From positions 55,524,118 through 55,588,117 of the forward strand of contig CM049317.1 of assembly GCA_026874595.1 (NCBI GenBank): a stretch of 64,000 bases of DNA. Reading direction: 5' to 3'. Shown in pieces: positions 2,145 through 51,420 of the stretch; within the stretch, counting starts at the first letter, position 1; each line of letters begins with the position of its first letter. Source of the stretch: Sipunculus nudus (lineage: Eukaryota; Annelida; Sipuncula; Golfingiida; Sipunculidae). The position numbers and the translations under genes were made by a program. The notes under the pieces are model-generated. The model saw only the letters and a program-made list of their open reading frames with translations. It made no database searches and was not told the DNA's origin.

Positions 2145-2815
2145 TATAAAAATTTCCTGTTTTTATATTTGCGTAAAGTAATTAAGGATCCGTTTGTGTC
2201 CATCAGCCTGTTATTATCCCTTCGCAACTTCGTTGTGAAAATGATATATTTACGCCTCCTTTCGTGCGTCCGTCGTGCCGTCCGTCGGGCCGTCTTTCCG
2301 TCCGGAATTGGCTTGTGGATCGAATGAAAGCCAACCTGTTTGGCCAAAACCTTTCATCTAGCAAATATGGCTCACCCATCTATGGATGAAAAAAATTATT
2401 CATCTTGAGGTCACAGGGTCAAAGGTCACGGTCACAAGGCGCACTATTTTAAAAAGCTTGTGGTCCGATTTGAACCAAATGGTTCGGTCCAAAACCCATT
2501 ATCTTGCACCTTTTATCACCCACCCATGGATGGAGAACCCTATTGACTTTGATGTCACAGGGTCAAAGGTCACGGCCAGTACATCGCCCACTTCTTGAAA
2601 ATGCGTGTGGACCCATTTTAGGATAAACGTTTGACCAACACCTGTCAGTGCCATCTTGCTCATATGAATCACCCATGAAGAACCCTACTTAGTTTGAGGT
2701 CACAGGAGCAAAGGTCAAGGCCAGAGAGCTGCCCTCCTCATTTTCACACTGTGTAATACACCCGTTCTAATTATGCCCCGTACAAAGGATTGCTCCGCTT
2801 TTCGGAGCCCTTGTT
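2145..2815. repeat. dispersed repeat with three ~145-bp internal units
   Basis: A CCGTC-rich segment (about 2262-2305) is followed by three units spaced about 145 bp, each marked by a variant of 'ggtcacagggtcaaaggtca' (near 2408, 2552 and 2697). The third unit is the most diverged. The block ends with 'gctccgcttttcggagc' (2790-2806), a perfect short hairpin. Blocks of this type are, from memory, common in bivalve genomes; I cannot confirm the family by search. No protein is encoded. Confidence 0.6.
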
Positions 2816-2849
2816 GAAGTTTATATTTTGAGTAGAATTTACCCACGTT

Positions 2850-3181
2850 GGCAGGGGTCATACAGGAGGGGGGAGGGGGGCATACATCACCCTCTTTTTA
2901 GCAAGGGGTGAGTGGGTCATTGTAATAATCTCCCTGTTATTCAGGAAATAATATTCATATATTGAAAATAAAATGTATTAAAAATAAGAATAAGAGACTT
3001 TTGTTCAATTTCTGAGTTAACTATGAAATATTAAAAATCTAAACCTGGTTTAGAATTAACCTAAACTGGTAACATAATACCTTGTGTATTTAAAACCTAA
3101 TGCTTAATTTTGGTATTTTTTGATAAGCTGTCACAAACAATAAATATATTTATATATACATCTATATAAACATATTTACAA

Positions 3182-3247
<66 letters not shown>

Positions 3248-3262
3248 ATAGATAGACAGATA
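2850..3262. repeat. G-tract / (TA)n-(GATA)n microsatellite-bearing repeat, copy 1
   Basis: The block begins with a G-rich tract (about 2867-2880). It continues through a segment containing 'tatgaaatatt' and 'ctaaacctggtttagaatta', and ends in (TA)n (3188-3208) joined to (GATA)n (3214-3245). The same order recurs at 6640-6835 and 42240-42560, so the microsatellite seems to be part of an interspersed element and not an independent slippage site. Confidence 0.6.
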
Positions 3263-4240
3263 TATTCACCCACCCCTTCCCCCGCCCGTTAAGATAATTT
3301 GACGCCACAACTCAAAGATCCGTGATTTAGACATAAGGGCTCTTAACGCACAAAACATGCATTATTGGCTATCTATAAAACAATTCATGGATCTTGAGCC
3401 CGTGATACAAGACTCATACGTCAGTACAGTGCTTAGATTCTGTAGCTGTTTTTAAAAAATGTACTGTATCCAGACCTTTGTGTACTAGCTCCATCGACAA
3501 ATTATCTGCAGGGCGGCCTTGGCCTATGGTCGCTGAACATCCCACGCAGTAGATGATACATACCATCAAACGGAAACGTGGGTTGGTTGAAACGTTGGAA
3601 GTTACTCGTCTTCAGAGCGTATAATCCATAATTTACGGCTACAATTTCATGACTTGTCGTTATGATTTTATATCCCTCCCTAGTTACAGTGAAAATTACC
3701 CTAACAAACATTTGACATTCAGGTCAAGCAAACGTATTCCAAATCTCATTATATTATCATAATTATTAACATAATTGCCTTGTTAAAAAAAATATTTATA
3801 TAGATTTAAAATAAAATGAGCCCGATTCTTGAAAGAAAAATTTTTTTTCTTCTTTATATTTTTCCCACTAAAACATGAGTTTTGTGTGATTTGTTCAAAA
3901 AATATTGGCACATTTATGAGCCCGGCAGTGACGTCACACACTGAGAAATCCCCTGTGACTAAAAATTCTAGATCTCAATAAAAGCACAGTATTTCTGCCA
4001 CTGTCAGTCCCAAATTCTTAGCAGAGAATAAAAATAACATGCATTACTGGATCTGAATTGTTTATAAATTTCAGTTCATGATGTCACAGGTTTACCAGCC
4101 AATCAAATCAGGGTAAAGTCTGGGATCTCTATGAAATCCTCCCATCACACAACAAACGCACGTGGAATAGGTTTACTTAACCTTCAAGACACTGTCTTCA
4201 GGTCCATTTTCGGGATAAACCAACAGCTGAAAGAGAGGGC
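3263..4240. other. stretch without recognised features
   Basis: AT-rich, with no coding frame of convincing quality. The minus-strand open frame near 3502-3711 has no supporting features. Confidence 0.5.
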
Positions 4241-4243
4241 TTA

Positions 4244-4900
4244 GTGTCGCCCTTCCGCCAGAGGTCGTGTCTTCTCAGCACAAACCTCTTCCATACTTCA
4301 GAATGGGGGGGGGGGGGGGGGGGGGGGGGGGTGGCCCCCACTAATTGTCTCAACTGTCCAACTTTAAAATCAAAATTTCTTACGTTTCAAGGAAACACCT
4401 TCAGTTTACCTGTCATATGCACATGCTTACAAAATGTTACTTTTTTAAGAGAAGTTCTTGTTGCAAAAACACCCATGTCTATGTTATTTGTTAATTTTTT
4501 TTCTATCGTATCTGAAGGGGCTGGATTAGGCCTATCCTCTTTACTAATTTATACCTACGCCGCTGGTGAATTTGGAATCCCCAGTGCATTATGGGCATAT
4601 AATTTCTATACTTACAATCCATAACCATTAGAGTCAAACACTTGTGAGTTTTACGCATTATCGGGTGAGAGCCAACGTACACATGGGTACATCGTGAACA
4701 GAACAGGCAGATCAGTACGTATACGTACACGAAAAACTTCGAAATTACCAACGGGACCTCGAAAAAGAGTTTGCATTTTCGAGGTGGTCGTCTAAGCAAG
4801 GTCTTATATACAGCGCAAAAACGAGTCGGGCCCTTGAACAAGTGGTCGTTATTTTTAGGTGGTTGCTAAAACGAGGTGGTCGTAAGACGAGCTTTCATTG
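4244..4900. repeat. poly-G tract and probable repeat-derived DNA
   Basis: A 27-nt G homopolymer lies at 4305-4331. The 18-bp string 'cttccgccagaggtcgtg' just before it (near 4251) recurs near 20004. At 4740-4885 the phrase 'aggtggtcgt' occurs three times in short succession, the pattern of a degenerate internally repeated transposon end. Overlapping open frames on both strands here are low-complexity and not credible as genes. Confidence 0.4.
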
Positions 4901-6639
4901 TTTATACAGATAAATTTTATCTTTGAATATTTATTTTCTTCAATATCAAATAGAAAGGCTTTATAAAAGTACTATACCTTAACATTTCGCGTACATTTTA
5001 GATATGCAAGTAAAATAATTTCTAATGTATTACATATAGTCATGGAAATAACTATGGTCTCTATATATATTATAATACATGATCACCTTATAAGGAGATT
5101 GGGTTGCATATAAATCAGACCAACCCTTTGCCTTATTTAGTGTGTTTGGTTGGAGTAATATATAGTATAAGCGCTGAGCCAAATAAGCTTATAATCGGAA
5201 TTGTTTGGCTTTATAAAATTATCTTTTAGCAGTTATAAATCTAAAAACAACTTTATAACAAACATTGTCATTATGTTGCTGCTCATAAATTAAGCATTAT
5301 ATTGCATTCTTGGTTTTAATAGACTCAATATTGCAGAAATAGGCAATTACTTCTTTTTCAACTACAAAAACAAATTTAGTTTTAACACTCATGTCAAATA
5401 TACCCTTTAAATTAGGCATTTTGCAATCACGGTTCAACCCATAAGTATTTAGCTTAATTAAGTAATTCAGTAAATCACATAACAGACAGTATACCAATCA
5501 GGTCCGTGCTGCTTTTAAAACAGAGGACACAGTAAAGTAATAGGGGTCTCCCTATAACCGGAACACAAAATTTATAACCTGTTGAACCTTATTTGCCATC
5601 GGTTAATCATTAGATAACTACACTTAACCCTGTGTTATACTATGTAATGAAAGCTGTTACATATTAGAAATGAACAAGGTCCCCCCCCCCGCAATAAAAT
5701 AATAGGAATTATATTACTTAAGTATTTTGTTCATATTAATATCTGTTTACATTAAAGTCCCGATTAAAAAATATATTAATAAAAATAAAATCTGTCATTC
5801 AATAATATAAAAAAAGAATAAGGTTTTTTATATTAAATTTTCGTCATCAGTTTGATGTTACTCATATAAATATCACAGCGAGATTATTATATTAAGGACC
5901 GGAAGATTTATTTAGGAAAGAGGTAATATAAATCGATAGTGTCTCCCCATCCCAAAAAAATAGAGTAAATATTAACCAATATTCTGTAACTAATTTCTAG
6001 CTCTATAGGAAAGAACTCTTTAAGAAGCTACCTGTGGGTATTTGTAGTTTCTGCCCTGACTTTGTCAGTTCTGTTCACATGGAGAATTACAAAAAATACG
6101 GTGCATCCCCATTTTGTCGCTTCCAACGTTCAAGACCAGCTTATACTTATAATGTATTGGTATATATTATGAATTAATCTGTCCTTATTCCTGCACTGTT
6201 ACATAACGTATTGAAGAATTCAATCAATATAACTAGGTTTATTATTTAACCTGCTAGATTTTAAAGATTTCATTTTTGGAAATGTCATAAAGGAGTTCTC
6301 ATCCTATACAAGATTTATACCGATATTTTCTTCTTTCATAGATTACTATATGAGTATACTTTATCACCATGGGCCTTGCTTGCTGATAAAGCGTGAGGGG
6401 GGCCAGCTATGACAACACGACACTCTGCCGTTTTAAAAAACATTGAAAGGGGCCTGGGAATGTACTCAGTTGATTAATAATGGATGTTAGGGTGGCAGGC
6501 TGCCGCTAGAGGGAGAGAGTCCAAAGGGGTACTGGTAGAAGACTCCCGACCTCCGAGAAATATGAACAAAGGCATAGAGTCTGTCCCCGACATCTCACCC
6601 TCCAAATAACAAACAAAGCAAAATCCCTCCCAAAAATAT
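4901..6639. other. stretch without recognised features
   Basis: AT-rich. It holds a C10 tract at 5681-5690 and no convincing exon. Confidence 0.5.
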
Positions 6640-6992
6640 GGTTTTTTTTTTCCAGTCACGTCACATATAATTAATACTGCAAAAATCATAACCTGTTATA
6701 TTTTAATAAATAGAATTATTGGCTTTGGTTCCAGTTATGAGTTTACTATGTAATATTAAATCTAAACCTGGTTTAGAATAAACTTATACTGGTAAAATGA
6801 CTATATATATGTGTGTATGTGTGTGTATATATCATCAATTAAAATCACCAAAAAAGCATCCTAATGCTTAGCACGGAACTTTAATCCGAACAGTGTGTGT
6901 GGGACATGAAAGGGGGAGGGTGGGTGGGGGATAAAGTAATCTGATATTAAGTTACTTGCCATCCATTTCAGGTTACCCGGGGGGGGGGGGGG
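6640..6992. repeat. microsatellite-bearing repeat, copy 2
   Basis: Matches the 2850-3262 repeat through the 'ctaaacctggtttagaat' segment (near 6761). It ends in a short (TA)n/(TG)n run (about 6803-6833). A G-tract at 6979-6992 lies just beyond. Copy 3 is at 42240-42560. Confidence 0.5.
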
Positions 6993-7144
6993 TAAATGAA
7001 AATGGGAAACTTCCGGGTCTTTACGCCGGTCTAAGTGTGAACCTTTGTTACATTAGCCTCGGGCTTTCCTTGAACCAGTGACCTTTAGTTTCGCACGTGA
7101 ACTTCAGTTTCGTAGTTCAATGCCTGCGTATGTTGTTGGCTCAC

Positions 7145-7298
7145 CTGTGCACTGAAAATGTCAAGAACGTCTTGTGGAAAAAGCAGATCATGGACAGACG
7201 GAGCCCTTTCACAAACGATCTCCCGAATACCCTGAGACTGGAGTCGGATAAGATGAAGATACGATGGAACCAGTTCACAGCATGGGCCAGTAGTTCGG
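7145..7298 (-). CDS. candidate internal coding exon, product unknown
   Basis: On the minus strand, 154 nt lie between an acceptor-like 'gttcattgcatctaag' and a strong donor, CAG followed by GTGAGC (rc of 7139-7144). One frame is open throughout and would give 51 codons plus one leading base. The peptide has ordinary globular composition and includes GIREIVCERAP and LLFPQDVLDIF. GC content is well above the surrounding DNA. I do not recognise the family and found no neighbouring exon on this strand. The opposite strand is also open (7097-7303), which weakens the case. A repeat-derived or chance open frame remains possible. Confidence 0.4.
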
Positions 7299-7309
7299 CT
7301 TAGATGCAA

Positions 7310-8323
7310 TGAACAGAAATGCTAAGGTTGCTATGAAACTGAAAGCTAACTACTTATTAGACTGGCCTAGTCGATGCAATGGTTAAGATTTACTTCCTCT
7401 CACTAACAGAGCAATCAAACCTGCTCTTGCTGTGTCGCAACGATTAGTACACGTACTGCCACTCCGTGATTAATTATATAACTGCATCTCTCTGGTCGTC
7501 CATTCTGTAGTGATTGGGGATGGCACTGAGTCACGTCTTTCGGCACACGGAATCACGTTTTATTTTACGCAATTAAGTAGCAAACGTTAATACTAAAGCC
7601 GAGGCAGGGCTTACTAACTGTTTAATTAAAAAAAAAACAAACAGATACACATTTTGATCAATTATATATTATTTGCTATTGATTATCCAGACAAGAGTGT
7701 TTCACTAGGGGATGGATCAAGAGACTTTCTATATGACGACACAGACAATATAAACCTGAAAATAAGGGCAAGGGATCCGTGGATCTATCCAACACTGTTG
7801 ACATTATTGGGTCTACAAAGATGTATGAGTGCTAACAAATGCATTGTTGAAAACTTTGCTTAATATCTTTACAAGGAAGAAAGAATTCGTCATTCTTTAC
7901 TAGCACCGCCACTTACAGATATCTTTACACTAAGGACAACCTAGACCAACCGTTAGAATGTCTGCTGCATGTTGTTATTTTGTATTTTTTCTTCAGTCAT
8001 AGTATAATGTTTAGACTACTGAATATATATAGTGACACATTTTGACAGCATTGACAGCATAACATAGTATTTTTGACATGAACAGGATATTTATTTCAAA
8101 CACCAGTTTATTTAAAACTTTAAAAAAATACATCGTTTAGATTGAAGTATTCAATAGCTGGAATACTTGACTAAGTAATCATAATTGTCGCGGGGGTATA
8201 TCTCACAAGGAAAACTCACTTTCTTTCTATAGTTGAACCCACATGATTTAGCAGCTATTTGGTAGGGTTTCCCCTGAATGTCGCCGGAGCAAAGTAGAAA
8301 GAATAGATATACTGGTGCTCTGT
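7310..8323. other. stretch without recognised features
   Basis: No convincing exon, RNA or repeat is seen. Confidence 0.5.
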
Positions 8324-12101: not shown

Positions 12102-14179
12102 CAGTGGCGTACCTAAGTGGGCGGGAGGGGATGTCCGCCCCGGGCGGCACATATTGGGGGCGGCATTTCGTGGAATTAGTAAAATGAGTAGCATAAGGAA
12201 TTCCTAAAATATACAATTTTGGCTTTTTTGTCCCTTTCAAGAATTTAGAGATTATCAAGTGGGCAGTGGAACCTACAAAATGATTGGCGAACGATTTGCA
12301 CAATTGGGCGGGGGAGGGAGCATTTCTGTGAATTAGTATAATCAGTGGCATAAAGAGTTCATCATAAATGCAAATTTGGCCTTTATGTCCCATGTTCAAG
12401 TATTCCAGGAATTATAAACTGGACAGTGGAACCTACCAAATGATTAGCGAACGATTTGTAAAAATTTTTTTCATTTCGTGGAATTAGTAAAATGAGTAGC
12501 ATAAGGAATTCCTAAAATATACAATTTTGGCTTTTTTGTCCCTTTCAAGAATTTAGAGATTATCAAGTGGGCAGTGGAACCTACAAAATGATTAGCGAAC
12601 GATTTGCACAATTGGGCGGGGGGGGGAGCATTTCTGTGAATTACTTTAATCAGTGGCATAAGGAGTTCCACAAAAATTACAAATTTGGCCTTTTGTCCCA
12701 TGTTCAAGTATTCCATGCAAGGGTTATAAACTGGACAAACCTACAAAATGATCAGCGAACGATTTGCACATTTTCGGGGGCGGTATTTCTGGGATTTAGT
12801 ATAATCAGTGGCATAAGGAGTTCCACAAAAATTACAAATTTGGCCTTTTTGTCCCATGTTCAAGTATTCGAGGGGTTATAAACTGGACAGTGGAACCTAC
12901 AGAATGATTAGCGAACGAATTGTACATTTGTGGGGGCGACATTATTGGGATTTGGTATAATCAGTGGCATAAGGAGTTCCTCAAAAAGTTCAAATTTGGC
13001 CTTTTTGTCCATTTCAAAAAATTTCAGGGATTAAAAACTGGGCAGTGGAACCTACAGAATGATTAGCGAACGAATTGTACATTTGTTGGGGCGGCATTAT
13101 TGGGATTTGGTATAATCAGTGGCATAAGGAGTTCCTCAAAAAGTTCAAATTTGGCCTTTTTGTCCATTTCAAAGAATTTCAGGGATTAAAAACTGGGCAG
13201 TGGAACCAACCAAATTATTTGCAGACGATCTCTATAGAGCTATAAGCAAAAAAAAAAAATACATATCTGTAGTTATTCTTTGTTAGATCTGTGGTCTTGC
13301 AATGTACAATTGTTGTATATTGTGACAAATCATTTGAAATTAAATTATAATATATATTTAAATTATATCATTACTTGAAATTTATTTAAATGCTTTATTG
13401 AATAACAAATAGTCAGAGGTTCATAAATAAATCTCGCAAAGTGCAAAATCACTATAATTCTAAAATGATTTTGATGTAGCCTTGAATTAAAGTATGCTTT
13501 TAACTTTGAGGATATTTTAATTGAACAAAGTCAGTTTTTCCAAACATTGGATATTTTATATGAAAATATATTAAACATACCCTGCCTACGTATGTAGGCT
13601 TAAATCATGAATTACGCTTTTATAGTAAAGACCAAAGTACCTTGCATGCAGCAGTACCTTGCATATCTCAATAGCTCTTTTAGGTGTACCTGCTGTCATA
13701 TGCGATAACAAGAGGTGGAATTATAGATGTGACAAGGTATTTATATGCGTTGAGAATGGAATAACACTCACCAAATAAAGTTTTTCCCCAAGTTAAGTAT
13801 AAAGTAATTATGAATTGTGTTTACATGAATGATAAAAGATCAATTCCCACATTATATGTGTATCCTGCAGTGTAATATGTTTATAGTTACAATTTATTCG
13901 TTTTATTCCTTTCTGTTCACTTCATAATGAAATATACTTGTTTGAACTTCGAATGATCTTTTGATTTAAATTAGCAAAGAGACGTCTGCTCTTTAATATG
14001 TGGCGGAAGAATTCCCTGCCAGTGAATCCATATAAGTGCGTTGTTGTCAAATACAAGCCTATAACAAGGACATTTGCCACGATATTTTTCAATATGTTAT
14101 CCAGTTTTGTAATCTTTTGTTAGAGGGGCGGCAATTTCTAAGACCGCCCCGGGCGGCAATGAGGCGAGGTACGCCGCTG
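12102..14179. mobile_element. hAT-like non-autonomous DNA transposon carrying a satellite
   Basis: The left end reads CAGTGGCGTACCTAAG. The right end in reverse complement reads CAGCGGCGTACCTCG, and both continue into 'ccgccccgggcggc'-type sequence (12137-12150 left, 14144-14157 right). The element sits inside a G-tract: the 8 bases before it are all G and those after it are A then seven G, compatible with an 8-bp duplication typical of hAT elements. No transposase is present. The interior is a ~155-bp satellite (12150-13230) followed by about 870 bp of AT-rich DNA. The hAT assignment is inferred from end sequence and duplication length only. Confidence 0.6.
12150..13230 (+). repeat. satellite, about seven ~155-bp units inside the hAT-like element
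   Basis: Units start near 12161, 12315, 12468, 12625, 12782, 12939 and 13094. Recurring strings are 'agtggcataaggagttcc', 'ttggcctttttgtcc', 'gcagtggaacctac' and 'gattagcgaacga'. The first and third units share an AT-rich variant not seen in the others, suggesting two-unit duplication steps. Open frames in this array (for example near 12049-12399 minus) are a product of the periodicity, not genes. Confidence 0.85.
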
Positions 14180-23797: not shown

Positions 23798-24146
23798 CTA
23801 GGTTTTAAAATATTTCAGGGTGAATTTGTTTTGATGGCGGCACTTGGAGAGAATTTCAGCTCTTGAGTTCAACAATGATCCAGGGGGGGCCGTAGCTATA
23901 AGTAGCTTTTCAGACAAGCAGAGATCACACTTCCTAGTCCCACAGAAGTAAGGTGCTGCCTTGGCAGATATTTCCCAGGAGAGCTTGTAATTGATATTGT
24001 TGTCTTTTAGTGACCAAATGTGTTTAGACAGTTCAGTGTTTTTAGCGTGGGATCTGTTCCGAAAGGATTGCTTGTGGTTATTATATCTTGTCTTGAAATC
24101 ACCTTCAGTACACCCTATGTAGTGTTTCACGTCATTGTCTGTTTTA
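23798..24146 (-). pseudogene. GIY-YIG endonuclease domain of a Penelope-like element (3' half of a split ORF)
   Basis: About 115 codons are open to a stop at 23798. Near the start lies KHYIGCTEGDFKTRYNNHK, the YIG motif followed by the conserved R and H positions of the GIY-YIG nuclease of Penelope-like elements. LSKHIWSLKD follows about 15 residues later, and a Cys-rich segment (CGTRKCDLCLSEK) lies in the C-terminal third. The nuclease nicks target DNA for integration of the element. The first in-frame ATG (24130) is not the real start; the frame enters from the other half of the gene at 31394. Homologous residues continue right up to the target duplication at 24141-24146. No internal stop is seen, so the disruption is recent relative to decay of the domain. 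Confidence 0.85.
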
Positions 24147-24193
24147 TACGGAAGCGTATTGCTGCCACCTGGTAAAAGAAAAATAAATTATTT

Positions 24194-24466
24194 ATCTCGT
24201 ACGTACGACATAGTATCTCGTACGTACGACATAGTATCTCGTACGTACGACATAGTATCCCGTACGTACGACATAGTATCTCGTACGTACGACATAGTAT
24301 CTCGTACGTACGACATAGTATCTCGTACGTACGACATAATATCTCGTACGTACGACATAGTATCTCGTACGTACGACATAGTATCTCGTACGTACGACAT
24401 ATTATCTCGTACGTACGACATACTATCTCGTACGTACGACATATTATCTCGTACGTACGACATAAT
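24194..24466. repeat. palindromic 21-bp array, left arm (13 copies)
   Basis: The perfect 12-bp palindrome TCGTACGTACGA occurs 13 times from 24197 at an exact 21-bp period. Spacers are mostly 'catagtatc' with 'catattatc', 'catactatc' and 'cataatatc' variants. The array is open in several frames on both strands because 21 is a multiple of three; the SRTYDIV and MSYVRD repeat peptides are artefacts. Confidence 0.97.
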
Positions 24467-25450
24467 TAATCTTCCGCATCTGAATCATAGAATACACAAC
24501 AGGCCAACTGATATATGTATAAGCATTATATATATGTTAAATAATGCGTGTTCGTACCCTAACTACACAACATCTTCACCTTGCAAACCGTCGGAACACC
24601 GTTGAAAAGAAAAAAAAATACATATGTTTATTAATGCATTTATCTTTTTATTTATTTTTACTATAAATTAAAATGCTATTGATTTATTGTTGTTTCTTTG
24701 TGTTAACGTTTCGGAAATATTGCAAGGAAAAGAAATTTATCAAATCGTTGTCTGCCAGTCATATACAGAACTTTCATTTTTAAATAGGTAATTAATTCTG
24801 TTAGCAGTGTAATATTAATAAGAACAAATTATTGCCTTTGTCAAATTGAAACTACCTTTTGGAGAAGGAAGGGTTCGGACAAGAGGTACAGCTAACAAAT
24901 AGCCTGATTGTAAGTAATTGAGAATTGATATATGTAGGGTAGGTTTCTTATATTCCTTAATTGATCTGTATAAGAACTAGATTTATGACATAACGCACAG
25001 TGTCACTCGTTCTACCGTAAACACTAAGTTCAACTGATGGGATCAAGCACTTCGTTTCATAATATATGAATCAGGAACCTCTCCTTACGGGCATCTCTGT
25101 ATTACAGACACCTCTATTAGTCAGGTGGCTTAGCGTCAGATTTTGGCCATATCGTTACAGACCGGATAAAAGCACTAAAATTTGTATATGGATAGAGTAC
25201 ACCAAAACAGATGATTTCAGATGGGGTGCCCTCATGGAGTACCTACGAGATAAGTTTTAGATCCTGAAAACCATCTGCGCCTTGCGTATCACAGTACCCT
25301 CTTTTCGCATGAAAATGAAGAGGGATAGGGAAGGAAAAATAACCTTAGATCCACTGCGGTTTAATGAAATATAGTAAATTATATACCAAAAGAAAGCCAA
25401 AGAAGTGTTCTTTCTATCATTACCATTTACATTGTTATAATATACATTTG
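24467..25450. repeat. left inverted arm of the 7.2-kb element, inner part
   Basis: Pairs in inverted orientation with 31159 down to about 30183, and past the inner insertion with about 29060-28917. The segment 25117-25440 is also repeated directly at 26103-26420 ('ggcttagcgtcagatttt' against 'ggcttggcgtcaaatttg', and 'agggaaaggaaaa' type strings), a spacing of about 985 bp. No coding frame. Confidence 0.7.
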
Positions 25451-26102
25451 TAGCCCAAAAAGTGTAGAATGGTCACGTGACAATACAGTTTCTCAAATTC
25501 GGGACTGGGAAAGCTACATGCAAACATTAAACGAAGATATTAAGTGTATAAACGAAAAAATGTGCAAATATTTTTCTTGTTTACTATTGTTGAGTTTGTG
25601 ATTCAGTTTTTGGGAAAGTATTAAATGTTTATCACAAAGGATAGTTCCCTTAGCAGCTTCTTGTGTTTGAACTTATAATATGACCGATTACCCATATTTC
25701 TGATAAAAATCAACCTTACATTAATATTTTTGTTTTTTCTTGTTATTCATTGCAACGGATCTCTGTAAATCGTACCCAATTCAAAATGTAAACTTCTGGG
25801 CCAGCAAAATGGATTTATATTAGAATTATATTATTAACTATCATAACCGCCTTGTTACAAGATTGCGACCACATTCCGAATAATATGTTGAGAAATTACC
25901 ACTGATACATCACCTGTTTCCAAATTAAATACAAATTAAAATAATATAGAAATTAAATCGTTCAGACTGCATTATCAAATAAGCCGACAATATTATTTAA
26001 GCCAAAAGGTTAAAATGCGATATATTAGTCGTACTGGCACATTCTGGAACACAACTTGGGTAGTTACATTTGGAAAAGGGTGTACAATCAAGATTTTCTT
26101 TT

Positions 26103-26420
26103 AGTCATGTGGCTTGGCGTCAAATTTGGACCATATAGTTTAAAATCGGATATAAGCACCAAACTGTGAAAGTGGATAGACTACATCCAGGGGGTTGATT
26201 TTAGAGGAGGTCCCCAGGTGAAGTACATAATAGTTTCGTTTTTAGCGCCAAAACCTATTTGGCCCTTGCTCACCGAAATAACAATATTTAGCCTGAAAAT
26301 ATGAAAGGTCAGGGAAAGGAAAATCACTTTAGATCCGCTTTATTTGGATAGAATATTGCAAATGATACACTAAATTAAAGACAAAGAAAAATATGTTCCA
26401 GTCCAATATATTTATTATTT
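26103..26420 (+). repeat. internal direct repeat of the 7.2-kb element
   Basis: Diverged second copy of 25117-25440. A third, inverted partial copy lies at 28917-29060 ('cggataaaagcaccaaa' in reverse complement). Thus one subterminal module occurs at least three times. Confidence 0.65.
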
Positions 26421-28916
26421 TTTTTATGTGCACAAGAAGCCAACATAACAGCAAAAGTCAGGTGTTTATGACAGATCTCAAAAAGGCGGTCATCAGCCAT
26501 GATGAAAATGTGACACAAATGTTTTAGTGAAGAGGTACAATTATTAACATAGTTTTTGTTTAATAATTCCTTATATATTTTGCCTGAGTTGGAGAGTATT
26601 GTCCATTAGGAATTATTGATAATTTTCTTTGCGGTCATTGTAGCTGACTTCAATTTGTGATCAAGACTTCGCATATAGTCATGTTAAACGCTTAAATGCC
26701 ATCGCAAAATATCAACGTTTTCATTCTACACTTATCCTGTCCTGTTCTTTATTAGCCGGAAATTATGCGTTCTAACTTTCAATTATTTAATTGCAGATGA
26801 ACAAATATATCCCGTCTTTTAGTCTTCTTGGTATATTGTAGTACTTTTACAATAAATCTTGCATTTTTGTTATGTAGCAAACTGTCTTGTTTATATATAG
26901 TTTTCTACAATGGCTAAATTTATATGGTGTTACTTAGTTGTTCATTATTTCATCTAGAGACCATGTCCTGTAGAATATTAACCTAAATTTCTTATTCCTT
27001 TCTTATTCCTGCATCCCATAACTATTTAACTTCATACCTGTTTTCTTTTTTATTTTGGGAATATAAAAATAAATACCATAGATACATGATTCATTTTTTA
27101 TACTATATGCAAGCATGCGGTTTAACAAATTTCATAGGCCTTTCTATTTTCCGTATGATGCAACAAATACCTTTATAAAATGATTTAATCGCAAACAAGA
27201 TGTCTAGTTTGAACTTGACAACAAGTTTGAAAGTATATGTCTGAATAACAAAAACAACCAATTTTATTCCAAATCATGTGTTATCTGTATCTCCAAACTC
27301 CCTCTTAAATTCACTCTAAAGGTTCTTAGGTTTAGGAATCCATCAATAACAAACACGTTTTAACAACAAAATGTATAGGTAAACTTAAGACAAAGCCCCC
27401 TTTTCCTGATAGATATAATGTGTTTGCTTTTAGACAGAACTTTAGACTTGCACTAAAATGGCGGTCTCAGCATTATAATACAACTTAAGCATATTCATAT
27501 TTTATACTTTATTTATATTCAATATTTTATAATCATAAACAATTAAAGTTAACTCAGTCGGACATTTCCATGTCTAAACGATTTAGAATGTAAAACTTGG
27601 TCTAAACAACGTTAATCATTAATATTCTGACTTTTTTTTATAGAGACGCTTTATTCTAAACGAATTAAACACCCAGCTAATCTTCATAAGTCCTCATTGA
27701 CTTGTACTCTAAAGGTATCGTCAGTCTCACATTGCATAGATCTGAACAAAGCCACAAACCAAATTTTTCTTTTTCAGTTAAATATTATTTAGGATAAGTG
27801 TAAAGAATTGCTGCTTAATGATTCAATTCTGAGAATTGTCTCATTTGCCTGTATAACATTTATCGTAATTGAGATGCGTTAATGCGCAGTGCAAAAATAT
27901 TAGTCCAATTCATGTAGACTGCCAATGTAAACACCAATCATGCACTGAGCTGCCCAGATCGCACCCATACTAGTATGATCTTTATCACCCAAACAATTAT
28001 GCATTATTTATTTATAATTTATTTATATTCATATATATATATATATATATCTTAAAAGCTGAGCTCCAATATTTTAACTACACTCTCAACCCATAATTAT
28101 TACAACAGCAGGCTGCGTCGTATTGAACCTTGATCTAAATTGCTACTATCAATAATTATTCTGCAATTTATTAATTTCTTTGAAATGTTATTATTCCAAA
28201 TAGATATAAAACTCAATGGGTGTTCAAGAACCACCTATTAGCGTATTATGTAAGTCCATATATAAGACTGGCTAAGTCAATGGATTTGCTTGTAGCCCTT
28301 TTCTCTCCAGACAGATATTATTTTGGATAAGTGTAACTTATATTGCTTTATGGCACATTTTCATTAAAGCATTTACCATATTTTATAATCAATATGTATT
28401 TGTGTCTTGATTATTAATGATCAAAGGTGTGGACAAATTAAATAAATTGTTTCAATCACCTGGGTTTTTCGTTTCTTACTTAGATACAGATTTCAAAATG
28501 GTTGGTTTCACTGGAAAAAAGTGTATATATATTAGTATATTTCCTATATATTTCAATTATATGGGTGTGAATCTTTATAATTTTAATATTTATGCAATAT
28601 TAATTTGTACTGAATTGCTTATATCTTAACTTTTTCAATATTTTCTTCAGAACATGAGGGCATTTTAACACACTCACAGAATACAATTTCACATCAATGG
28701 ATGACGTGACCTTTCGACCTCTTGCGACTTACAATTATACTTAAATATGATTTTCGTCACAATTTCAACGACAACTGTTCATGATATTTCTTAATGGTGT
28801 TCTTATTATGCTTATTGATTAATTTAAAATGAGTTTTAGAGTCAACTAAGTATACAACATTCCGTTAATTGTTGTAAACTTGTGAAATTTTACGTAAAAT
28901 CCTGTTATTTTGGACT
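26421..28916. other. interior of the 7.2-kb element
   Basis: Very AT-rich with no protein frame above about 70 codons and none recognisable. Two stretches about 545 bp apart (27620-27900 and 28205-28385) share 'ataagtgtaa', 'taagtcc' and 'atttacc'-type landmarks, hinting at an old internal duplication. A short (TA)n lies at 28033-28050. Confidence 0.5.
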
Positions 28917-29062
28917 CGGGCCTGCTGAAAGAACCAGAAACTGAGTTCCGGTGGGCATCCCCTCCAGAATGATCAGGATCGATCTGTAGATACTTCATAT
29001 CAAATTTGGTGCTTTTATCCGGCGTGTAACGATAATTCCGTTAAGCCACCTGACTATATATT

Positions 29063-29659
29063 GACACTCAAGGTTCATATTCTTTTGTACTAATATGTTT
29101 TGTCTCACGTTATTAACTCATTTTGGCTGAATACGAAAAATGTTTAGCAAATCCATGCCGATAAACGGGATTAATATCTCCTGTTTACCGCATTTGTATC
29201 CGTTATAACGGTTCTGTGTGTGAGTAAACACAGTGCACCTTTGTCTGTTTATAATAACAAGACCGCGTGACCAGAAGCAAGATCTTAGTCTACCATACGC
29301 GACAATTATAAAAAATAGAGAAGAAACATGAAAGAAAATCACCCAGAAAAGCTTGAAAAACCTTGATTTTTGTGGAGTTTATTTTTACGGCCAACAGGTG
29401 GCGTGAGCGCTGTTTTTCATTGATCGCGCCCAGGGCAAGTTTTTTTTTCCACCTGTAAACAGGAGAAAGTAAACGAAGAACGAAATATTGAGAGATCCCG
29501 TAATAGTTTAAGGAGACTAAATTGTACTTTATTTATACTCAAAGTACCTGGTTTGTAAAATGTGAATAGGTCCTTTTTTTCATTTAAACTTTCTACTATT
29601 CAATCGGCTCTCTCTCTCTCTCGCTCTTTCCCTCTCTCTCTCTCTCTCTCTTTCTCTCT

Positions 29660-29712
<53 letters not shown>

Positions 29713-30183
29713 AATATATATATATACGTTAATATGTGTGTGTGTGTGTGTGTATGAAAAGACTGAAAGCCTTGGGATATAATACCAGCGCTGTGTTAGA
29801 ATGGCTAAGCCGGTGGATAGTATTAATGTCATTAGTAATACATGTAATGTCTATCAGATCTTCTTGTTTGACCAGATAAAATATCCCGACATGTGCAAGG
29901 GGCATAATTAGTTATTGTTACTTGCGGGGGATTCCTTTGCTTATATGGCAAATTTGAAATGGAAATAAAATTTAGAAACGAGACCAATCGTTTAGAAACG
30001 AGACAAACACAGCGCTCACGCCACCTGGTGGTGGTACAGCATAAATTCACAATTCAAGGGTTTTCAAGCTTTTCTAGGTGTTTCTTCTTTTATGTTTCTT
30101 TTCTTTTTTATAATTGTCGCAAGTGCGCGACCAAGATCTTTCCTCTGGTCACCCGGCCCTCTTATGTAAACACCTAACAGACA
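29063..30183. mobile_element. inner inverted-repeat element nested in the right arm
   Basis: The right arm of the 7.2-kb element is uninterrupted in the left copy ('acctctattagtcaggtggc', 25103-25122), but in the right copy it is broken between about 30183 and 29063. The inserted DNA has inverted arms of roughly 180 bp: 29240-29425 against 30003-30170, with 'acaattataaaaaa', 'agaaaagcttgaaaa' and 'caggtggcgtgagcgctg' on both. The centre holds (CT)n, (TA)n and (TG)n. No target duplication was resolved and no coding frame is present. Confidence 0.6.
29606..29755. repeat. (CT)n-(TA)n-(TG)n compound microsatellite
   Basis: CT-rich run 29607-29696, TA run 29697-29726, TG run 29735-29753. The arginine/glutamate-rich minus-strand frame across it is an artefact. 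Confidence 0.95.
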
Positions 30184-31159
30184 CTTATAGAGGTTCTATA
30201 ATACAGAGATGCCCATTAGGAGAGGTTCATGATTCATATTTAATGAAACGAAGTGCTTGATCCCATAAGTTGAACTTCATGCCGTTTACAAAAGGGCGAG
30301 TTACACGTACATGTACCACATACAAGATTTTATACCAATTCGCAAATGAGACAAATCTGAGGTGTAGATTTTACCACCACTTCAGCTTGACATATGAGGT
30401 TAAGACCTATTTTTGAATTTCGTATTCTTCGGTCACAGATTAATCACACGCCCATGAGTGATAGTTTTTAATATAAATTTTTTTTTATAATTTAGTTCAA
30501 AATAAAAATTATACGTACCCCCATTAAATGGATCGTTTTCTATTCAGCTACCCAACAATCATATCAATCGCTGTATATGCATTCAATAGTTTAAAAGGTC
30601 AAACTACACGATGTGTTATGTATAAATCTAGTTCTTAGAAAGATCAGTTTAGAATATTAGAAACCTGCCCCAAAGATAATCATTCTCAGTTACTTAAAAT
30701 CAGGCTATTCGGGAGCTGTACCTCTTGTCCGAACCCTTCTTTCTAAAATAAGTAGTTTCAGTTTGGCAAAGGCAAGATTTTTTCTTATTAACATTATGAC
30801 AGGCTAACTATTATAACATCATATACTGCTAAAATTATTTATTCACCTGTCGTAAAATGAGTTCTTTATATGATTGTCAGACAACGATTTGATGTATGTT
30901 TCGCTTGCTTGAAATATAACAGAAACCTGGACACACACAAAAAATGTGAATCGAATAGCATTTAAATATATACAATAAATAAATAGATATATGTGATTGT
31001 GTGTGTTGTTTTCAATGGTGGTCCAGCGGTTTGCAAGGAAGTGGAGATGTTGTATATATAGTTAATGTGAAAACATACATTATCTAACATATACATATTG
31101 CTTATACATATATCTGTTGGCATGTTATCTAGTCTATGAATCAAATCCGTGAGATTTAT
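30184..31159. repeat. right inverted arm of the 7.2-kb element, inner part
   Basis: Inverted match of 24467-25105, diverged by indels. Landmarks: 'acgaagtgcttgatcccat' (30248), 'aatcaggctatt' (30699), 'ctcttgtccgaaccctt' (30723) and the segment next to the array. Confidence 0.7.
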
Positions 31160-31346
31160 TATGTCGTACGTACGAGATAATATGTCGTACGTACGAGATA
31201 GTATGTCGTACGTACGAGATAATATGTCGTACGTACGAGATAGTATGTCGTACGTACGAGATAATATGTCGTACGTACGAGATACTATGTCGTACGTACG
31301 AGATACTATGTCGTACGTACGAGATACTATGTCGTACGTACGAGAT
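31160..31346. repeat. palindromic 21-bp array, right arm (9 copies)
   Basis: TCGTACGTACGA recurs nine times from 31164 at an exact 21-bp period, with the spacers of the left array in inverted order. The copy-number difference from the left arm (9 against 13) shows that the arms evolve independently by unit gain or loss. Confidence 0.97.
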
Positions 31347-31393
31347 AAATAATTTATTTTTCTTTTACCAGGTGGCAGCAATACGCTTCCGTA

Positions 31394-31911
31394 GTTTTAA
31401 CTGTTGCTTTATAGACAATGCATTTCAGCTGACATTGACCATTCATAGGACATTCGTCTTTTTTACGGCAGTTACATTGTTTTTGGGGTGCATTCACAGC
31501 ATTGTCAGAATTTAGAACCTTCATATTATGTTTGCTGATCAGGTTAGACATGTTGGGTAGACAGCTGTAGCTAATTTTCAAATTGTTCCTGTTGAATAAC
31601 CTGTGGTACCTGTGATGTTGAGGGAAGTGTTTTTCAACTAGTTCCATGAATTTTCTGCCAATGTTGGTTTTTACATGACGGCTGTAGGGTGGATTAAACC
31701 ATATTATTTTCCTTTTCCTGTTTCTCTTGCTTTTCACTGTAGGTTCAACATATTTTAAGCTTTCTGAGAACCCGCTTTTCGCTAAAGCTTCATCATACAT
31801 GGGTTTGGCTTTCATAAATAGCTCTTTATTGCAGGAGTTGTCAGAAACACGTTTACTGATCATCATAGGTATCTGCCTAATGATAGCTGGGGGGTGATTG
31901 GATTGTGCGTG
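31394..31911 (-). pseudogene. Penelope-like element ORF, 5' half (RT thumb and zinc-linker)
   Basis: About 172 codons of a Penelope-like polyprotein are open on the minus strand. SNHPPAIIRQIPMMISKRVS lies at the start and KIIWFNPPYSRHVKTNIGRK in the middle, both typical of the region following the reverse-transcriptase core. A Cys-rich linker (CNCRKKDECPMNGQC) and CIVYKATVKT follow just before the insertion point. The RT catalytic core is absent: homology starts abruptly at a (TA)n tract (31912-31932), so the copy is 5'-truncated. The frame runs 12 codons into the inserted element before stopping. The GIY-YIG half continues at 24146. Confidence 0.85.
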
Positions 31912-31932
31912 GATATATATATATATATATAT
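31912..31932. repeat. (TA)n at the truncated 5' end of the Penelope-like element
   Basis: About ten TA units directly abut the 5' limit of Penelope homology. The 3' side also ends at a (TA)n tract (23061-23122), so the element is bounded by TA repeats on both sides. Confidence 0.85.
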
Positions 31933-32149
31933 ATTTGCGGAGCAAGTTGCAAAGACCACCTATCTAATAAGACTATAATGTCTATTAAGATCATCTTTGG
32001 GTGATCCGAAATCATTAACCTATGTGTTGTAACTATCCTGTGTAATAAGGACACGTGGTAATAAAATTTCTCTTTTGGCCACTCCCGCGGATGGTCTCGT
32101 TTCACAGGTTTCACTCTACCTGGCAATAGCTACACTGGAGCCAAATATT

Positions 32150-49734: not shown

Positions 49735-51420
49735 ACATGTGACCCAGGGGTCATGATGCTCAGCTGACTAGGAAAACATTCACGAAGGGAATTTTATCAA
49801 TGCCAAATTTTGTAGGTGGTATCTCCATTCAACTTAAGCATAGCTCAGAGGATATGGGTAACAGAGACCTTATTTCAGGTTTCAAGCAGATCTTTATTGG
49901 ACCTCCCTGAATGTCAAGTAAGAAGATTCTAGGTCAAATGGTTACATTTTATGCCCTGTTAACAGATGACCACATCTTTGAAGGTATATAAAATAGAGAA
50001 AAAATGGGTAAAATTAAAAAAAAAATCCAGGTGGCGCCACCAGTCTGCAGAAACTAATGAAAGACTCCATGAGCAATACACATGCAAAGAATCGTGGTGA
50101 TAAATGAATTAGTTGTTCAGATAATGAAGGTTTTTATCACATTTTCAATTATTCCGGGGGGGGGAGGATATTTCTGAGCCACATAGCTTAGAATGTCAGA
50201 TGTCCACGCGGACTTTTCATGGGCCTCCATGTTCATGGACAGTTCATGGATCTCCCAGGATGTCAGCTTAGAACTTTCTAGATTAAGTGATAAGGATTTG
50301 TGCCATGTTAACAGATGACCGCATCTTAAGAGGTCTCAATAATAGAAAAAATCGTAAATATCGAAAAAATCCAGGTGGCGCCACCAGACTGCATAAATTG
50401 TTGAAACATTCCATGATCAATATCCGTGCAAAGAATCATGGATATCAGTGCATTTGTTGTTCAGATACTTGAGCTTTTGTATCAAATTTTCTGTTATTCT
50501 GGGGGGGGGGGGGTACTTCAGAACCCCATAGCTCAGAGTTTATGGGTAACAGAGACCGAATGTCAGATGTCCACGCAGACTTTTAATGGGCCTCCCTGCA
50601 TGTCAAGAGGAAATATGCTAGGTCCAGCCTTTACAATTTGTGCCATGTTAGCAGATGACCGCATTTTAAGAGCTCTCAAAAATAGTGAACAAAAATCGTA
50701 AAAATCGAAACTGCAGACTGCAGAAACTGATGAAATATTCCATGATCAATATCCGTGGAAAGAAACATGGTGATCAATGCATTAGTTGTTCAGACACTTA
50801 ACTTTTGTATCAATTTTTCCATTATTCTGGCGAGGGGTACGTCGGAGCCCCATAGCTCAAAGAATATAGCTAACAGAGACCTAATTTTAGGTTTCCAAGG
50901 AGACTTTTCATAGACGTCCCAGATTATAACAATAAAAGATTCTAGGTCTGGTCGTTACGATTTGTGTCCTGTTAACAGATGACCGCAGCTTTAAGGTATC
51001 AAAAATGAAGAAAAAAAAAAATCGTAAAAAATCGAAAAAATACAGGTAGCGCCACCAGTCTGCAGAAACTGATGAAACACACCATTATCAATATATATGC
51101 AAAGATTCATGGTGATCAATGCATTAGTTGTTCAGATATTTGAGCTTTTGTATCGAATTTTCCATTTTTCTGGGGGGTACTTCGGAGCCCATAGCTCAAA
51201 GAATATAAGCAACAGAAACCTAATTTTAGGTTTCCAAGGACCCTATTCATGTTTAGTTAGAAGGTTCTAGCACCAGTTGTTACGATTAATGCCCTGTTAA
51301 AAGATGACCGCATATTAAGAGGTTTCAAAAATAGAGCGGTTACGAATTGTGCCCGGTCGACGCACAAAGAGTGATCGCTATAGCTCAGATGACTGACAGT
51401 CAGCTGAGCTAATAACCGGA
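49735..51420 (+). repeat. tandem ~340-bp repeat, four to five units
   Basis: Units are marked by the perfect palindrome GGTGGCGCCACC at about 50030 and 50374, a deleted equivalent near 50710 and a variant near 51045. Recurrent strings are 'tctgcagaaactgatgaaa', 'tgcattagttgttcagata', 'acagatgaccgcat' and a G-tract (50156-50164, 50501-50513). The third unit has lost the palindrome. The outer ends match 45353-46700. Confidence 0.75.

Follow-up and report, generated by a model that had tools for sequence, protein, structure and literature searches.

A mobile element family with subterminal palindrome arrays, probably of the IS3EU/GingerRoot type, in the genome of Sipunculus nudus

The element and the interrupted reading frame

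The window, a stretch of 64,000 nt from contig CM049317.1 of Sipunculus nudus, contains a non-coding element that splits a minus-strand open reading frame (ORF) and is bordered on either side by the 6-mer GTTTTA (Table 1). The ends of the element, TACGGAAGCG (from 24147) and CGCTTCCGTA (to 31393), occur only once each in the window, and the target site duplication (TSD) is not lengthened by the adjoining base on either flank. Additionally, among 1540 pairs of TAYGG/CCRTA motifs situated 60–15000 bp apart in the window, a 6-bp duplication was found solely at this element. The boundaries and the 6-bp duplication proposed by the first-pass annotation, which was made from the letters of the window, were thus both correct.

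Table 1. Coordinates of the element, its parts and the interrupted ORF in the window.
Feature	Position	Strand	Remarks
Whole element	24147..31393	.	7247 bp, non-coding; defined by its ends and TSD together with empty sites and additional copies
TSD GTTTTA, left copy	24141..24146	+	Paralogues have one 6-mer there, GTTCTA or GTTCTG
TSD GTTTTA, right copy	31394..31399	+	
Terminal segment, left	24147..24192	+	46 bp, TACGGAAGCGTATTGCTGCCACCTGG...
Terminal segment, right	31348..31393	-	46 bp
Subterminal array, left	24193..24464	+	13 units of 21 bp around TCGTACGTACGA
Subterminal array, right	31160..31348	-	9 units of 21 bp, inverted orientation
Inner left arm	24465..25231	+	69–79% to right arm in three pieces (blastn)
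Inner right arm	30183..31159	-	Insert of ca. 270–300 bp at about 30307–30605
Further weak right-arm piece	28953..29056	-	
Interior	25232..30182	.	Non-coding; contains the weak right-arm piece
Upstream portion of split ORF, presumably Penelope-like	31400..31959	-	Paralogue alignments stop near 31918
Downstream portion of split ORF, presumably GIY-YIG-like	23798..24146	-	Domain label from motif

Judging from motifs, we take the split ORF to be Penelope-like and its downstream portion to be GIY-YIG-like; a Pfam search with the split ORF gave nothing above the cut-off. Removal of the element plus one 6-mer joins both halves in frame, as had been annotated, with the deduced product reading ...YKATVKT up to the junction and DNDVKHYIGCTEG... 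after it. We then cut out 14 paralogues of the Penelope-like unit, from 39 other scored matches, as a sample of empty sites. All 14 were uninterrupted at the insertion site and contained a single 6-mer, GTTCTA in 12 of them and GTTCTG in the other two, with 5–13 mismatches and 2–5 gaps over 1546–1605 aligned columns across the junction. Since no paralogue contained an exact GTTTTA, the T of this 6-mer was presumably present in the target before the element arrived. The annotation considered a pre-integration allele in a related genome to be decisive; the uninterrupted sites found here are paralogous and not allelic. The window copy probably inserted recently into a young Penelope-like unit, breaking its reading frame.

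The left and right ends of the element are identical over 113 bp, which include the first array units. The arms of the window copy share 97% identity in their outermost 237 bp and 73% in ca. 540 bp further in; past the insert in the right arm the identity is 79% over ca. 150 bp, and a 69% piece lies beyond a second break. The arms of ca. 1.1 kb originally described are thus present, although they are imperfect.

Copies in the genome and coding capacity

A search with the 20-base end, allowing one mismatch at most, produced 608 matches in the same 1.43-Gb genome, whereas the reversed 20-base end, used as a control, produced none. Pairing by hand among 100 listed of the 608 ends yielded at least 28 end pairs within 10 kb, with lengths of 1954–8408 bp, and two longer pairs were read by eye (C4:67500951–67510845 and C6:80965269–80974105); for two single-ended copies (L012 and L025), the second end was absent in 4 kb further on. 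The 6-bp duplication was perfect in 20 of the 21 copies read at both ends, as anticipated in the annotation, and matched in 5 of 6 letters in the remaining one. The target letters varied among copies, and one further base matched on the left in two and on the right in three of 19 copies, which is the chance level. A tested interior stretch of 4801 bases was covered entirely, or in all but one base, by three other copies (L009, L010 and L020), and in part by L023 (4459/4801) and L024 (3411/4801). The extra length of copy L046 is due to an unrelated block (2406–7795) that, judging from its protein, is probably a nested LINE. The excess of end matches over the control, the nearly invariable perfect TSDs and the empty sites in all sampled paralogues indicate that the element is a mobile DNA transposon with many relatives in this genome.

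The only frame of at least 150 aa in the window copy runs through an array, and its six frames gave only low-scoring Pfam matches below the cut-off, in agreement with the lack of coding capacity first described. Longer copies encoding a transposase or integrase, suggested as a further check, were not found among the copies scanned: Pfam revealed no transposase in the window copy or L019, each scanned in six frames, or in L012 and L028, for which a portion of the frames was scanned, and the middle 2.4 kb of the 9.9-kb end pair on C4 contained no ORF larger than 121 aa. A search with the IS481 profile produced 65 scored integrase-like hits from 5100 candidates. More than half of them were in frames of at least 600 aa, which we guess to be LTR polyproteins. 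No hit could be tied to an end of the element; a comparison by eye with a complete list of ends covered the 13 hits on C1–C3, and none of these was within 10 kb of an end.

Relationship to IS3EU/GingerRoot elements

The signature described for IS3EU/GingerRoot elements consists of TA..TA termini and, usually, 6-bp TSDs (PMC10045372), and members from rust fungi have TAYGG..CCRTA ends (PMC12730594). All of these features were found here: besides the 6-bp TSD, the element has TACGG..CCGTA ends, with TACGG varying 0–3% per position in 38 arms from 19 copies (3% for the terminal T and 0% for the A). The end letters and the TSD length, compared with the published signatures, suggest that the element is probably a DNA transposon of the IS3EU/GingerRoot type that is non-autonomous and belongs to a large family. 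The first-pass annotation had assigned the ends to no superfamily, but they fit one that it had itself listed for the 6-bp duplication. For comparisons of ends, the Repbase rule asks for an equal TSD length and for agreement at positions 1–11 with one mismatch allowed (PMC4455052). The family, as distinct from the superfamily, may still be undescribed; a full-text literature search with three array or end sequence strings returned no transposon paper, as judged by title. Fungal IS3EU elements are described as having TIRs longer than 30 bp and a transposase with further genes (PMC12730594), whereas the copies scanned here have imperfect arms of ca. 1 kb, with palindrome units in each, and no transposase. 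Likewise, the IS3EU-like Styx of Zymoseptoria shares with our element the 6-bp duplications, a length of several kb and recent movement, but it has a 36-bp TIR, an encoded integrase and a fungal host (PMC10853768).

It is unlikely, albeit conceivable, that the element belongs to a DNA transposon superfamily of its own, or to a hAT-like lineage with 6-bp duplications, with a transposase unrelated to that of IS3EU and with convergent TA..TA termini and TSD length. No transposase copy could be linked to the element, and the IS3EU descriptions consulted do not mention palindrome arrays or arms of ca. 1 kb; however, the five end letters TAYGG and the TSD length both fit IS3EU. Similar long arms with subterminal repeats occur in Mutator- and P/Galileo-type foldback elements. 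Muta1 and other Aedes MULEs have long TIRs with subterminal tandem repeats (of 9–15 bp in 10 of 12 long-TIR families) and many non-autonomous derivatives of variable repeat number (PMC5225508), and Galileo, of the P superfamily, has long variable arms, which in one copy contain tandem repeats (PMC4168063). Moreover, IS256 and MuDR are together given TSDs of 4–10 bp (PMC10045372), so that a length of 6 bp is not by itself an obstacle. Nevertheless, such an origin is very improbable: MULE duplications are given as 8–10 bp, being 8–9 bp in the Aedes MULEs, which also differ in their shorter units and transposase superfamily (PMC5225508), and Galileo has 7–8-bp duplications with a palindromic target motif (PMC4168063), whereas the TSD here is 6 bp and extends no further than expected by chance.

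Even less credible is a non-autonomous derivative of a Polinton/Maverick, in spite of the 6-bp duplications of these elements and of the TIRs of 46–1447 bp reported for intact vertebrate Mavericks. The vertebrate Maverick ends are AG or AGT repeats, as opposed to the TACGG found in the 38 arms, and Pfam revealed no polB, integrase or capsid genes in the six frames of the window copy, although a derivative could lack them. Dada elements, which insert in snRNA or tRNA genes and are described as lacking terminal inverted repeats (PMC3706591), were rejected given the perfect TIR, the varied target letters and the absence of Rfam matches across the window.

Subterminal palindrome arrays and transposition

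In 38 arms from 19 copies, the 46-bp terminal segment varied 0–5% per position, except for one position with 53%. These arms contained 456 units of 21 bp, at 2 to 22 units per arm, with a spacing of 21 in 416 of 418 steps. The N of the motif ATA-N-TAT was variant in 64% of the units (G122/A46/T164/C124) and the remaining 20 positions in 0.2–4.0%, values that are biased toward apparent constraint because the unit finder accepted up to five mismatches. The 22 units of the window copy showed a single change outside N. One strand of the array showed strong fold-back (z -10.5). Exact scans of IMG/VR with the 18-mer array core and the 20-mer end, and of prokaryote contigs with the 18-mer core, gave no match. 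We know of no comparable end architecture in IS3EU or other eukaryotic transposons.

Comparison of arm pairs, which are not independent and whose alignment omits units with several mismatches, likewise favoring apparent constraint, showed that, in the closest arms, the other 20 positions differed in 0.67% versus 0.70% for the inner flank (16 pairs; N, 8.3%); in two sets of more distant arms, the values were 1.1% versus 2.2% (40 pairs; N, 16%) and 1.5% versus 4.2% (75 pairs; N, 20%). In 12 pairs chosen earlier, the summed differences were 24/163 for N, 63/3260 for the other positions and 268/4728 for the flank, the latter inflated by three poorly matching pairs. By the first of these comparisons, N turns over 5–12 times faster than the flanking arm, which rejects that it is merely an unread letter and indicates that it is either shuffled or a hotspot. 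Conversely, the slower change of the other 20 positions with respect to the flank between distant arms suggests that they are under constraint in older lineages.

The arrays could be ordinary satellites homogenised by unequal exchange, with no role in transposition and with N either being prone to mutation, as it might be at the tip of a hairpin, or shuffled by exchange; we consider this a possible reading, although one of somewhat limited likelihood. The variable number of units per arm implies that exchange occurs, and the fast turnover of N, the flank-like rate of the other positions between the closest arms and the fold-back are all in agreement. However, the spacing is almost perfectly kept, the remaining 20 positions evolve roughly two to three times more slowly than the flank between more distant arms, and exchange alone should eliminate the diversity of N. 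More speculatively, the arrays might be a purpose-built scaffold of palindromic sites phased at two helical turns, with 20 of 21 letters held and one rewritten at many times the neutral rate. The transposase or a partner protein, binding these sites co-operatively, would then put together the transpososome or protect the ends; each palindrome would be opened or exchanged at its fast letter, and the family might deserve a lineage of its own.

For an element of the IS3EU/GingerRoot type, a transposase putatively supplied by another locus would bind the 46-bp ends and, probably, the adjoining array. The array unit equals two helical turns, which places the palindromes on the same face of the helix, and we infer that they form a row of putative sites at which the transposase, or a protein acting with it, would bind. 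By analogy with IS3EU and its integrase relatives, the enzyme would pair both ends, excise the element and join it to the target at a 6-bp stagger, with gap repair yielding the duplication. Inserted copies would then decay freely, whereas lineages keeping the unit and its spacing would continue to be moved; N, the central letter of the second dyad, would not be read and would change faster than neutral through unit exchange or as a hotspot.

The element represents a multi-copy, recently moving family, probably of the IS3EU type, which has been little studied; its boundaries are clean and its empty site has been shown. Its hundreds of array units are a record of which letters of a transposon end are kept and which change, with the turnover at one base in every 21 far exceeding that of the bases around it.

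Boundaries of the element and its uninterrupted site

The first-pass annotation claimed matching inverted ends and a 6-bp duplication, and both were borne out: the element is bordered on both sides by GTTTTA, a duplication not extended by the adjoining base on either side, and its two ends are identical over 113 bp. The end sequences, TACGGAAGCG and CGCTTCCGTA, are both unique in the window; of its 1540 TAYGG/CCRTA pairs, only the one from the element has a 6-bp duplication. Removal of the element plus one 6-mer restores the minus-strand ORF in frame, in agreement with the earlier claim that the element splits it. We take the interrupted unit, by its motifs, to be Penelope-like with a GIY-YIG end; a Pfam search with it returned nothing above the cut-off.

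A search of the genome (1.43 Gb, 153 contigs) with flank 31400-31860 gave 40 scored matches, including the window, of 601 candidates, each listed at 100% identity. Among these scored matches, several near-identical copies of the Penelope-like unit lie in head-to-tail rows with a spacing of ca. 2.92 kb; this unit is a young retroelement in tandem arrangement. The first-pass annotation named a pre-integration allele in a related genome as the decisive check; here the uninterrupted sites are paralogous, and one was found in all 14 paralogues (L032-L045) examined at the insertion point from the 39 non-window scored matches. In all 14 the alignment spans the junction; it is 1546-1605 columns long and contains 5-13 mismatches and 2-5 gaps. 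Because these paralogues are near-identical and uninterrupted, the host unit is young and the insertion younger. Their empty sites carry a single copy of the 6-mer, GTTCTA in 12 and GTTCTG in two; since exact GTTTTA appears in both window copies and in none of the 14 paralogues, the target presumably had the T before insertion.

Coordinates of the element and of associated features
Feature	Location	Observation
Window in the searched genome	G000:C12:55524118-55588117	
Element	window 24147-31393	7247 bp
Inner inverted repeat of the element	window 29246-29417, 30005-30172	79% identity; adjoins break in right arm
Diverged repeat within the element	window 25113-25404, 26097-26388, 28996-29056	69-77% identity; two direct, one inverted
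Minisatellite-like array	window 12147-13219	period ca. 155/308 bp
Minisatellite-like array	window 50296-51240	period ca. 324 bp
Penelope-like unit rows (among others)	G000:C11:14440731-14452871; C9:65453262-65464997; C9:9605976-9615214	flank matches
Copy L047	L047 86-5914	additional internal right end at 2944
Block nested in a transposon copy	L046 2406-7795	minus-strand ORFs of 290, 864 and 418 aa

Copies in the genome and coding capacity

The left end plus array identified 119 genome matches, many overlapping inside arrays (40 scored of 880 candidates), and a 20-base end with at most one mismatch occurs 307 and 301 times in the genome, the reversed control giving none. Both ends lay less than 10 kb apart in 18 of 20 fetched regions, counting L020, whose right end has 6 mismatches in 26; the second end was not found in the other two, L012 and L025. 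Together with the window, L046 and L047, the 18 regions make up 21 two-ended copies, 20 of which show a perfect 6-bp duplication (5/6 in L019), as anticipated when further copies with such duplications were suggested as a check. This count includes L022, perfect by direct sequence reading (automated end placement was 2 bp short), and L047, perfect by its outer ends. The right end of L022 carries the element's final 16 bp twice, directly inside the duplication; the internal right end of L047 is followed by GTATCC, as in its outer duplication, and L047 is a rearranged or internally duplicated copy. The 21 copies have 20 different target 6-mers, GTATCC being common to L027 and L047, and no strong target motif was seen among their duplications.

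A long class (window, L009, L010, L020, L023 and L024) shows pairwise identities of 94-97% over 5.5-7.2 kb, and a short class of 3.3-4.6 kb matches it at the ends and in part of the interior. The 5-kb interior, shared in this way, is thus a component of the family and not a later insertion. The nested block in L046 is, from its look, probably a LINE.

No stop-to-stop frame of at least 230 aa exists in the window copy and 20 fetched copies as cut; L012 with its flank has one 242-aa frame, whose start lies in the flank. The 21-bp period at the element ends keeps frames open, and most of those reaching the listing threshold of at least 150 aa begin there. Pfam found no transposase in six frames of the window copy and L019, three forward frames of L012 or three frames of L028; for the window copy, the absence of visible coding capacity noted earlier holds. 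This is a genuine family of non-autonomous DNA transposons that has moved recently.

Anatomy and evolution of the subterminal arrays

The outermost segment of each arm is 46 bp long, with a per-position variation of 0-5% except for one position at 53% (38 arms, 19 copies). The array of 21-bp units starts at offset 47 in 35 of the 38 arms, the three exceptions starting at 45, 46 and 62, and the inner arm, internal to the array, is 69-79% alike between left and right. Among the 456 units counted in these arms, spaced by 21 in 416 of 418 steps, unit position 20 (N) is G in 122, A in 46, T in 164 and C in 124, and the remaining 20 positions are 0.2-4.0% variant each; the window has 13 units on the left and 9 on the right, and outside N a single letter deviates among the 22. 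Each unit contains two near-dyads, matching at 9/10 positions each, one around the centre of TCGTACGTACGA and the other around the N of ATA-N-TAT. One strand of the left end plus array folds far more strongly than 100 shuffles (z -10.5). The inner inverted repeat, also matched in other long copies, is perhaps an old nested element.

The same nine N letters run along the window right and L020 left arrays, and the same sixteen along the L021 and L026 right arrays; read along an array, the N letters are inherited like a barcode. We aligned arms unit by unit, permitting gain and loss of units, with the inner flank as reference. N differs in 13/157 cases (8.3%) in the 16 closest arm pairs, 54/340 (16%) in 40 pairs and 145/715 (20%) in 75 pairs, against 0.67, 1.1 and 1.5% for the other 20 positions and 0.70, 2.2 and 4.2% for the inner flank; the pairs overlap in arms and are hence non-independent, the alignment discards units with several mismatches, and the mismatch limit of the unit finder biases towards sameness. 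Twelve pairs chosen earlier gave 24/163 for N, 63/3260 for the other positions and 268/4728 for the flank, a flank sum inflated by three poorly matching pairs; the nine left after their exclusion gave 16/123, 37/2460 and 78/3895. In the closest arms the other 20 positions change at the flank rate, as in decaying copies; in more distant arms they change at one half and then one third of it, as expected if constraint acts on lineages that are still moving. N outpaces the flank in all three groups of pairs; hence it is either shuffled by exchange of units or more mutable, at a dyad centre.

Relationship to known transposons

According to section 3.3 of PMC10045372, TA..TA termini are invariable in IS3EU families, whose duplications are usually 6 bp long, and GingerRoot has 6-bp duplications with TA..TA in most. 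Rust-fungus IS3EU elements have 6-bp duplications, TIRs of more than 30 bp and TAYGG..CCRTA ends (PMC12730594). In the IS3EU-like Styx the duplications are also 6 bp long, the TIR measures 36 bp and movement is likely to be non-replicative (PMC10853768). Published descriptions give AG/AGT-repeat ends for vertebrate Mavericks (PMC8097293), RNA-gene targets and no TIR for Dada (PMC3706591), 8-9-bp duplications and subterminal repeats for Aedes MULEs (PMC5225508) and 7-8 bp duplications for Galileo (PMC4168063). The Crassostrea gigas satellites CgiSat35 and CgiSat47 are annotated as IS3EU-related in PMC8268682.

The duplications of our family share their 6 bp with those described for IS3EU/GingerRoot. 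Duplication length and end sequence class the element as IS3EU-type, and the earlier idea that its ends match no known superfamily is not supported; the family as a whole most likely belongs to the IS3EU/GingerRoot type. Its ends pose no puzzle, but its arrays, phased palindromes with 20 steady letters and one restless one, are a striking variant.
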